Source of the DNA: Pseudofrankia sp. DC12
Lineage (GTDB): Bacteria; Actinomycetota; Actinomycetes; Frankiales; Frankiaceae
NCBI RefSeq assembly: GCF_000966285.1
Contig: NZ_KQ031391.1
Coordinates: forward strand, 2,380,640-2,444,639
DNA: 64,000 nucleotides
Direction of reading: 5' to 3'
Shown here: in pieces, positions 22,697 to 25,730 of the stretch
Position numbering within the stretch: the stretch's first letter is position 1
Layout of the letters: every line of letters starts with the position of its first letter
Translations under genes and position numbers: made by a program
The notes under the pieces: generated by a model
Told to the model about the DNA's origin: nothing
Seen by the model: only the letters and a program-made list of their open reading frames with translations
Database searches by the model: none

Positions 22697-22970
22697 CCTG
22701 AGCCGCTCCTCGCCACCCGCTCGCCGCCGGCCTGCGTCGCGGCGCCCGGCCCCGCCCCGCGCGCCGACGGCCGGCTGACCTGCGGGAACGCCGGCCGCTG
22801 CCCACCGTACGGGGCAAAGGGAGCACGACGCGCGGGCGCGGCGAGGCGGCCGGCTTTCGCCGGTGCCGAATTCGTCGCCTCAGACTGGTTGCGCCGGCGG
22901 GTTTACGGCCTCTATCATTTTGCTGCGACGTGCCTACACCAAAGGCGCGGCTATCGGTGGGAGGGCTCCA

Positions 22971-23087
22971 GTGAACCCTTGTCAGCACTCCAACGATGAC
23001 GATCTCGTGGTCTCCGTCGAAATTCTCGACGATGTACGGGACCGCTACGACGCCGAGCGGGCGGACCCCGACGGCAGCGACGGCTGA
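22971..23087 (+). CDS. 38-residue acidic peptide upstream of JmjC oxygenase
   Basis: The GTG at 22971 follows GGGAGGG with six-base spacing, and the frame closes with TGA at 23085-23087. The peptide starts M-N-P-C-Q-H-S-N and then has a hydrophobic/acidic core (D-D-D-L-V-V-S-V-E-I-L-D-D-V) and an Asp/Gly-rich end. It has one Cys, one Tyr, several Arg and Asp, and no membrane segment. The oxygenase gene begins 43 bases later on the same strand. I infer a possible peptide substrate or RiPP-like precursor; the V-S-V-E-I-L-D core only loosely recalls leader peptides. The frame is open upstream of the GTG, but without a ribosome site. Confidence 0.55.
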   Translation: MNPCQHSNDDDLVVSVEILDDVRDRYDAERADPDGSDG

Positions 23088-23130
23088 GTTCGCGAGAAAT
23101 AAGCCGTCAGCGGTCAGCCACTAACCAGCG

Positions 23131-24378
23131 TTGACGAATGTGAATCACGGGTCGCACGCGCTGGACCACCTGCTCGTCCGAGAAATCGAGGGCGCGCTTG
23201 GTTGGCCAGACGCGGCTCCGCTAGGCCGGGAGTTCTCGACCGGGCGGTTCGCCGGCCAGTCATTGGCCGAACGAATAGTGACTCCGTCCAGAATATTGGA
23301 TATCGTCACGCGCCGATTTGTGGAGCCGCCCCGGCTGCGCCTTTTCCAGGACAGCCGGGAGCTTCATCCAGCCGAATACCTCCGGGTTCAGGAAAACCGG
23401 CGGCGGCCGTCGGCCCGTGCCCTGGACCCAACCGCCGTGACAGCCCTGCTTGATACGGGTGTGACGCTCGTACTGGACGGGCTGGAGATGTTCGACCCGA
23501 TCGTCGAGGTCGCAACCCGCGCGCTGCGCTGGTGGTCGGGCGAGCTCGTGCAGACGAACGCCTACCTGACGACCAGGTCGGCCGACGGCTTCCCGCTGCA
23601 CTGGGACGATCATGACGTCCTCATCGTGCAGCTGGCGGGTGAGAAGAACTGGGACGTCCGCGGCAGCACCCGGCCGGCGCCGATGTACCGCGACGCCGTG
23701 CCGAACGAGGAGGCCAGCTCCCAGTCGGTCTGGCAGGGGGTGCTGCGGGCCGGCGAAGTCCTGCACATCCCCCGCGGCTACTGGCACCAGGCGACCCGGG
23801 CCGAGCATGAGGACCCGGTCAGCCTGCACCTCACCTTCGGCTTCACCCGGCGCACCGGGGTGGACTGGCTGACCTGGATCGCCGACCAGGCACGTGAGCA
23901 GGAGCTCTTCCGGACGGACCTCACCCGCTCACCCAGCGAGCGGGAAGCCGAACGCGCCCGGCTGCAGGAGGCGGCGATCGAGCTGGTGCGCTCGCTGCCG
24001 CCGGCGGCGTTCCTGACCGCACGAGAGCGCACCCGGCCGCCGGCCCGGCACGCACCGCTGCTGCCGTCGGCGCACGAGCCCGAGGTCGTCGTCTGTGTGA
24101 CCGAGTTCGCCCCGCACGTCGAACGGTCCACGGGCCAGCTGGTGGTCTACGCGGGCGGCCGGAAGATCACCGTTCGGGACCGGGCCGAGGCCGCCATCGA
24201 CCTGCTGCTCAGCGGCTGCCCCGTGGATCTGGCTGCGGCCGAGGCCCAGGTCGGTTTCGACGTCCGTCCGCTGGCTCGCGTCCTGGTCCGCGAAGGCATC
24301 TGCGTCGGGCTGACCCCGGAGCTGGCCGTCGGGTACGCCGGCCTGGTCACCGGCGGGACGCCCTGGAAGCTGGGCTGA
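23131..24378 (+). CDS. JmjC/cupin-type Fe(II)/2-oxoglutarate oxygenase with winged-helix tail
   Basis: 415 residues from TTG 23131, or 412 from GTG 23140; neither has a strong ribosome site, which fits coupling to the upstream peptide gene. The jelly-roll carries H-W-D-D-H at 157-161 and P-R-G-Y-W-H-Q at 214-220, so the iron triad is H157, D159 and H219, with L-A-G-E-K-N-W downstream of the first strand. Residues about 250-415 are helical with a winged-helix-like end, as in ribosomal oxygenases of the YcfD/RoxA class. Such enzymes hydroxylate Arg or His side chains. The first 250 bases are clearly less GC-rich than the rest. The substrate is unknown. Confidence 0.85.
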   Translation: MTNVNHGSHALDHLLVREIEGALGWPDAAPLGREFSTGRFAGQSLAERIVTPSRILDIVTRRFVEPPRLRLFQDSRELHPAEYLRVQENRRRPSARALDPTAVTALLDTGVTLVLDGLEMFDPIVEVATRALRWWSGELVQTNAYLTTRSADGFPLHWDDHDVLIVQLAGEKNWDVRGSTRPAPMYRDAVPNEEASSQSVWQGVLRAGEVLHIPRGYWHQATRAEHEDPVSLHLTFGFTRRTGVDWLTWIADQAREQELFRTDLTRSPSEREAERARLQEAAIELVRSLPPAAFLTARERTRPPARHAPLLPSAHEPEVVVCVTEFAPHVERSTGQLVVYAGGRKITVRDRAEAAIDLLLSGCPVDLAAAEAQVGFDVRPLARVLVREGICVGLTPELAVGYAGLVTGGTPWKLG

Positions 24379-24396: not shown

Positions 24397-25251
24397 TCAG
24401 GCCGCCCCGGCCCCCTCCAGCACGCGGACCTCCCAGCCGTAGACGGGACGGCGCAGTGGGGCCGCGCAGGTGTAGTGGATCTGGTCTTCGCCGCGCAGCT
24501 CGCGCGAGACCTCGAGCCGCCAGCTGCCTTCGTGCGCCTCTACCAGCACCTGCGCACCGGTCGGCTCGTCGGCCGCGCGCAGGACCTTGGCCGTGGGCGG
24601 CGTGGTCGGGTCCCGGTGCCCGAACAGCTCCCGGTACCAGATCTCCGCCACGGACTCGGCCTGGCTGGACCCGAGGCGCCCGCGCACGTGCCCGAGCGGG
24701 AGAAGGCCCTGCACGACCAGGTCACGCAGCTGGTCGTCGTCCAGCTCGTCGAGGCGACCGAGCAGGTACCCGCCGGGCAACAGGATCGCGGTCGCGGAGA
24801 AGCGGTCCCCACCGAGATGGCTCACGCCGTACACGGGCGCGTCCGGAGCGAGGCTCTTGACCCGGCGCAGGAAACCGCCCCCGCGCAGGCCGCAGCAGGT
24901 GTCGTGCCGGCCGTGCACACAGACGCCGAGGAACCGCTCGGCGGGCCCGGCCGCCGCCCAGCCGCCCCGCGACGCGCGGTAGATCCGGCGCCGGACCGTG
25001 TCCCAGAAGAAGGCCGGCTCGGTCGTCGGCTGGCCCGGGTACGGCCGGTAGTACTGCGTCCTGGCGCCGGGCAGCTCGGGGAACAGGCCTGGGTCGGCCG
25101 GCGGGATCTGGTGCGGCCAGTGCCCCGCGGCGGGCAGGAAGCAGTACGCCCCGACCTCCGGCACGGAGCCCCGGATGTCCTCGGCGGCGGACCGCGACTG
25201 GGCGCCGCAGCGCGTGGAGCGATGCGGGGCGGCCCCGTTAGGCTGGGTCAT
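24397..25251 (-). CDS. Suc_Fer-like (sucrase/ferredoxin-like) protein
   Basis: 284 residues from the ATG at 25251. It shows the thioredoxin-like ferredoxin pattern of this family: an N-terminal R-C-G-A-Q-S-R with downstream G-S-V-P, then C-V-H-G-R-H-D-T-C-C-G-L-R-G near 130 with the probable 2Fe-2S cysteines, and H-L-G-G-D-R-F near 160. Length is typical of actinobacterial members. Its function is not established. It converges on the JmjC gene with 18 bases between the stops. Confidence 0.82.
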   Translation of the reverse strand: MTQPNGAAPHRSTRCGAQSRSAAEDIRGSVPEVGAYCFLPAAGHWPHQIPPADPGLFPELPGARTQYYRPYPGQPTTEPAFFWDTVRRRIYRASRGGWAAAGPAERFLGVCVHGRHDTCCGLRGGGFLRRVKSLAPDAPVYGVSHLGGDRFSATAILLPGGYLLGRLDELDDDQLRDLVVQGLLPLGHVRGRLGSSQAESVAEIWYRELFGHRDPTTPPTAKVLRAADEPTGAQVLVEAHEGSWRLEVSRELRGEDQIHYTCAAPLRRPVYGWEVRVLEGAGAA

Positions 25252-25730
25252 CGGCCAGCCCGTCCGACCCCAGGCGCGCCCAGGCACCCGATCGAGGCGG
25301 TCGGGGTGCCGGGGCTATCCGTGGACACAGCGCCGAACACATGCAGGCGTCGAGGCTCAGGGACAGCGGCCACTGCGACACCTCCGCACGAAGCAGGCCA
25401 GGGTGGGCACGTCAGGTCAGGCTCATCAGGTTAGGTTCACTTAAAGCTATCGCGGATGGGCCGCAGACGCCGCGTGACGCTGGTCGCCAGGCCGACACCG
25501 CCCGGGAAACCGGCGAAACCAGGCCGGAGCGAAGAGCCCCACCCGGGACCAGCCGCCCGTTTACCGGATGTCCTCGCGCGCCCTGGGGTACCTGGTTCGC
25601 GAGCGCCGCACCACGCGCCGCGGCCCAACCCCTGCTCTCGGGGCCGCCAGGCCCGGCCGCCGGCGCGACCCGGCCGGCGGGCGACTCCGGCTGCCAGGGC
25701 CGGGCACCCCACTCCGGCAGGAGGAGGACC
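25252..25730. other. divergent intergenic region, about 480 bp
   Basis: It separates the Suc_Fer gene from the LppP/LprE-like gene. An AT-richer segment at about 25420-25450 includes GTTAGGTTCACTTAAAGC, a plausible promoter zone. No coding feature is recognised. Confidence 0.35.

Follow-up and report, generated by a model that had tools for sequence, protein, structure and literature searches.

A conserved short peptide encoded beside a JmjC oxygenase in Pseudofrankia and other actinobacteria: a probable RiPP-like peptide-modification system

A 64,000-nucleotide stretch of DNA (the window), representing 2.38-2.44 Mb of a 6.88-Mb Pseudofrankia-group genome, was analysed. It carries an ORF of 38 amino acids directly upstream of a JmjC oxygenase gene, which quite probably encodes a precursor peptide with the oxygenase as its dedicated maturase, the two forming a minimal RiPP-like system. 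A minimal peptide-modification system had already been suggested in a preliminary description of this DNA. As far as can be judged from sequence comparison, this is the best reading of the locus, supported by the linkage of the two genes, by selection at the protein level and by a leader/core layout of the peptide. The features of the locus are listed in Table 1.

Table 1. Features of the peptide-oxygenase locus (positions in the window)
Feature	Position	Strand	Details and evidence
Peptide-gene ribosome-binding site GGAGGG	22960..22965	+	Sequence; 5 nt ahead of GTG 22971
Precursor-like peptide gene	22971..23087	+	GTG start, TGA stop; 38 aa: MNPCQHSNDDDLVVSVEILDDVRDRYDAERADPDGSDG; homologues, pN/pS
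Leader-like conserved half DDDLVVSVEILDDVRDRYD, residues 9-27	22995..23051	+	Alignments; L12, V16, L19 and R25 invariant in alignment A1
Core-like variable tail ADPDGSDG, residues 31-38	23061..23084	+	Alignments
Asp32, conserved Asp of the (S/A)D site	codon 23064-23066	+	Alignments
JmjC Fe(II)/2OG oxygenase, ROX fold	23131..24378	+	415 aa from TTG; Pfam, Foldseek, phmmer
Catalytic residues H157 (23599), D159 (23605), K172 (23644), H219 (23785)	23599..23787	+	Alignment A2
C-terminal winged-helix domain of the oxygenase, residues 329-393	24115..24309	+	AlphaFold; candidate leader-binding (RRE-like) domain
Sucrase/ferredoxin-like gene (PF06999)	24397-25287	-	Adjoins the cassette

Several details of the preliminary description were borne out by the sequence, namely the 38-codon frame with its good ribosome site, the 43 nt between the peptide stop and the first in-frame oxygenase start (TTG 23131), and the missing ribosome site of the oxygenase, as no Shine-Dalgarno-like sequence was seen ahead of TTG 23131 on inspection. 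A longer in-frame ORF of 74 amino acids from GTG 22863 was rejected as the true gene, since close relatives differ by indels that disrupt the frame upstream of 22971. In the alignment, the region 22971-23087 is kept among these relatives, unlike the stretch upstream of it, and the peptide ORF of one related locus (L005) is identical to that of the window. A search of the window's genome for a second copy of the peptide gave noise-level matches only. The peptide was earlier characterized as Asp-rich with one Cys. This composition is correct, but no importance can be attached to the Cys, which is peculiar to the window's clade and missing from nearly all relatives; constant across relatives are the leader Leu, Val, Leu and Arg and one Asp.

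Searching genome contigs with the oxygenase as query revealed 77 loci with 45-91% identity to the oxygenase, mostly in Streptomyces and also in Frankia, Pseudofrankia, Kitasatospora, Streptacidiphilus and Actinokineospora. In 76 of the 77, the oxygenase is preceded by a homologous short ORF in the same orientation, and 75 of these 76 have a ribosome site in front of the peptide, which is among the most constant elements of the locus. The conservation upstream of orthologous oxygenases, on which the earlier proposal had been made to depend, was therefore found. For the 68 Streptomyces-type loci, the pN/pS of the peptide was 0.15 in its own frame, whereas shifting the frame gave 2.4 and 3.7. Because of this linkage and the low in-frame pN/pS, the peptide is regarded as conserved and the substitution pattern indicates that it evolves as a translated protein under purifying selection at the protein level; the occurrence of the ORF is likewise far beyond chance. 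The same two results place a short, precursor-like peptide beside a modifying enzyme, as is expected for RiPPs. No family could be assigned to the peptides using Pfam and NCBIfam. The sole exception is L081 in Streptomyces philanthi: a peptide was not detected there, the oxygenase match lacks its N-terminal part and the reductase remains, an apparent case of cassette decay.

A comparison of three species (the window, L011 and G002) showed differences at 2 of the 117 nt of the peptide ORF, none of them synonymous, while the oxygenase gene varies at 25% of its third positions. The longest identical run between the window and L011 measures 103 nt in the peptide region versus at most 53 nt in the oxygenase gene. 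These values suggest a constraint on 22971-23087 above that expected from protein selection alone.

The peptide alignment comprised 101 peptides (80 unique), with the more divergent types aligned separately. The conserved half follows the pattern LxxxVxxLxxVxDRxD, succeeded by the (S/A)D dipeptide and a variable tail rich in Asp, Gly, Ser and Asn, whose length and sequence differ group by group. In addition to the tail of the window, SDSDGSDG was found in Pseudofrankia, SDSDGSDGLNYPEGQ in Frankia and SDNxGSSGDAPWPGGDGNL in Streptomyces; further tails include SDxTGTSxGDDGENRDGLNxPE, SDGAxGDSGENRDG, SDPPPDGGGDDPWPEGDxLN and others. The leader pattern persists down to about 32% oxygenase identity, the tail again varying in length and sequence. 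The alignment presents the conserved leader and variable core of a RiPP-like layout.

The oxygenase matched PF08007 (JmjC_2) in Pfam with an E-value of 5e-21, and it is the only PF08007 gene in the window's genome. Foldseek against the PDB retrieved NO66 (E 4e-21) and YcfD (9e-15), as well as MINA and YxbC, and phmmer also linked the protein to NO66 (6e-17). The AlphaFold model was confident, with a mean pLDDT of 83 and a pTM of 0.83. H157, D159, K172 and H219 are invariant among the 33 sequences aligned; H157, D159 and H219 make up the HxD...H iron site expected of a JmjC fold of the PF08007/ROX type, and K172 is the likely 2OG anchor. Assignment to the RoxA/YcfD class, as made previously, holds for the ROX fold shared with YcfD, NO66 and MINA; the protein falls in a separate actinobacterial clade and need not be an orthologue of RoxA.

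In AlphaFold models of both the full-length protein and the domain alone, the C-terminal domain consists of three strands and then three helices (residues 329-387), and relatives gave weak winged-helix Pfam matches. A survey of RiPP recognition elements (RREs) gives the same order, three strands then three helices, as the strict RRE definition, and describes PF08007 JmjC proteins with such domains and bacterial homologues in RiPP-like contexts (PMC12710340). Because the modelled domain order fits this definition and JmjC homologues occur in such contexts, binding of the leader by the winged-helix domain would be the natural inference.

The earlier proposal concerned a two-gene pair, but relatives usually carry more genes. 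An aldo/keto reductase with a conserved D/Y/K/H tetrad lies downstream of the oxygenase in 74 of the 77 loci and overlaps its gene: the reductase match starts about 45 nt ahead of the end of the oxygenase match. Further downstream, 48 loci encode a kinase-like protein with the APH-type motif HADLNWAN...DWEDWG, mostly in convergent orientation, for which no Pfam match was obtained. In the window, L011 and G002, no reductase follows the oxygenase and a sucrase/ferredoxin-like gene is located there instead; the APH-like kinase is also absent from this clade. When the rest of the window's genome was queried with the Streptomyces proteins, neither such a reductase nor such a kinase was detected. 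The lineage of the window thus seems to carry a reduced cassette, from which reductase and kinase are gone and in which peptide and oxygenase are kept. Relatives of the sucrase/ferredoxin-like gene also occur beside the cassette in six loci, all inspected ones belonging to Frankiaceae. Two Pseudofrankia genomes possess a second locus (L119, L122) with a related peptide, an aldo/keto reductase and an APH-like kinase without JmjC gene, and a peptide of this second family stands alone in another Pseudofrankia locus (L125). In one of those two genomes (G006), the first locus consists of peptide and JmjC gene without reductase, so that each locus might supply what the other lacks. Among the neighbours of the cassette, no protease or transporter was constant. 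Likewise, no MNIO, B12 radical SAM enzyme or TldD-like protease was recognised among the window neighbours tested, and none recurred in relatives.

The peptide profile was searched against 394 genomes of the class and 201 genomes of another family, with one genome per species. The profile detects short, divergent members poorly, and a missing match does not equal absence; with it the peptide was found only sporadically within genera and families. All confident matches precede a JmjC gene, except those of the L119/L122/L125 peptide family and one match at a contig end. Twenty PF08007 genes were sampled where the profile had no match. Eight of them have a reductase and a divergent peptide that shares the leader/tail plan (e.g. 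MQEQQFDGDLMVAVEEITTERSRGDQPSDGGGTGRSDTNDGIR). In eight others (L152, L154, L155, L157, L161, L162, L163 and L167), the JmjC gene is immediately preceded by a multi-repeat peptide of a very different kind (EGPADGGA..PGxHDGGADG), and a reductase is missing. Other peptide types, the Cys-containing MAETKTLKMDEIQVETAPAADPQFLICDPDPSDDCWIVCNPNYCY and MDPNQFEVEVEELPEVTSRDVTAGGDSDGSDGSSDFI, precede the JmjC gene in L158 (about 928-1065) and L164, and no peptide was recognised ahead of it in L160 and L165. The repeat peptides are composed of 2-5 units of about EGPADGGA(x)1-3PGxHDGGADG(G/S)A and gave no NCBIfam match. From its sequence such a peptide looks like a multi-core precursor, and an enzyme resembling NO66 or MINA would by analogy be well suited to act on the conserved His-Asp of the repeats. 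A tree built from 50 JmjC proteins has a 100/100 branch between the leader-type clade and the repeat-type clade, and the group labels required 5 changes versus a mean of 22 in shuffles. Since the sampled PF08007 loci mostly have peptides, in separate clades, the pairing of a JmjC protein with a small precursor-like peptide is common in the sample and no peculiarity of the window.

Starting from what was observed, namely a conserved peptide under selection at the protein level, an operon arrangement, intact catalytic residues and the order of elements in the C-terminal domain, a mechanism can be proposed. Translation of the peptide would start at its own ribosome site, with that of the oxygenase probably coupled to it. 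The C-terminal winged-helix domain would hold residues 9-27 of the peptide, and the Fe(II)/2OG site would hydroxylate a side chain within or beside the acidic tail, which might then be released. The side chains modified by ROX-fold JmjC hydroxylases are those of Arg or His; for the related FIH they are those of Asn, Asp or His. Asp32 is tentatively put forward as the most likely single target; the invariant Arg25 and the Asp and Asn residues of the tail are alternatives. In most relatives, the reductase of the same operon would oxidise or reduce the hydroxylated product; it may reduce an aldehyde or ketone resulting from over-oxidation, or oxidise a beta-hydroxyl. The APH-like kinase, often present, could act on the product or confer self-protection, and the lineage of the window would retain just the peptide and oxygenase steps.

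Two other explanations were weighed against the precursor reading. The short ORF could be a regulatory leader of the oxygenase (an uORF, attenuator or translational coupler) with a functionless peptide, the oxygenase acting on a ribosomal protein. Coupling is plausible for an oxygenase start without clear ribosome site and an ORF ending 43 nt ahead of it, and no synonymous change separates the peptide ORFs of the three species in the window's clade. However, selection acts on the amino acids across genera, the C-terminal tail is conserved within groups beyond any stalling stretch, Pseudofrankia copies of the peptide precede a reductase without oxygenase, and the loci are sporadic rather than housekeeping, which makes a mere leader unlikely. 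The oxygenase might also be an ordinary ribosomal oxygenase of the YcfD/RoxA/NO66 type with the peptide as an unmodified partner that could serve as inhibitor, as adaptor or as a small subunit. NO66, MINA and YcfD are indeed its best structural matches, and winged-helix domains are standard in ROX enzymes, including those hydroxylating ribosomal proteins, a point which also counts against the precursor reading itself. The constant aldo/keto reductase and frequent APH-like kinase, on the other hand, have no evident place in ribosome hydroxylation, the half-conserved, half-variable peptide with its Gly/Asp/Ser tail is precursor-like rather than subunit-like, and occurrence within genera and families is sporadic. 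Gene distribution and context hence argue against ribosomal-protein hydroxylation by this oxygenase, and the unmodified-partner explanation is considered very unlikely.

The precursor reading faces a further objection, as the lack of a constant protease or transporter leaves core release unexplained. The pair of the window could moreover be vestigial, its tail being only eight residues long and its clade having lost the reductase, yet three species have almost the same peptide. A broader interpretation of the precursor reading is a reasonable possibility, somewhat short of even: a new RiPP class, widespread in actinobacteria, of stand-alone JmjC enzyme and aldo/keto reductase, in which the Asp of the (S/A)D site is hydroxylated and the reductase and the kinase act. 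The reductase product could be, for example, a beta-keto residue able to lose its carboxylate, the kinase would modify or detoxify the product, and the window would represent a stripped-down, hydroxylation-only form.

JmjC oxygenases are known mainly as modifiers of ribosomes and histones. The results indicate that in actinobacteria entire clades of JmjC proteins go together with small peptides resembling precursors, each having only one to three enzymes. No paper combining JmjC protein, precursor peptide and aldo/keto reductase was found in the open literature, an earlier subscription-only description being possible, and the main text of the decRiPPter paper does not mention such oxygenases; the cassette is very probably an undescribed RiPP-like peptide-modification system. 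With two short frames, an expected mass shift of +16 Da as read-out, and close relatives differing by one further enzyme, the two-gene form of the window is about the smallest test system imaginable. Among known systems, YcfD/RoxA, NO66 and MINA (PF08007) share the fold, the HxD...H iron site, the candidate 2OG Lys and the C-terminal winged helix with the oxygenase, at about 16-22% identity in structural alignments, but these ribosomal oxygenases stand alone, whereas the present enzyme is sporadic and paired with a short peptide and an aldo/keto reductase. The RRE-bearing JmjC proteins resemble it as PF08007 members with a domain of three strands and three helices in RiPP-like contexts; the accessible text on them names no precursor family, reductase partner, product or cassette of this kind (PMC12710340). 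The only worked-out JmjC RiPP case found is BipG, the ornithine hydroxylase of biphenomycin biosynthesis, which hydroxylates Orn in a RiPP precursor (PMC12707348). Both systems combine a JmjC-domain Fe(II)/2OG hydroxylase with a ribosomally made precursor, action on the peptide being a proposal in the present case. The BipG cluster also contains an MNIO, a B12 radical SAM enzyme, an HExxH hydroxylase and TldD-like enzymes, and its substrate is Arg-derived Orn (PMC12707348), whereas the cassette described here comprises a stand-alone JmjC enzyme, joined by a reductase in relatives, and an Asp/Gly-rich precursor of another family.
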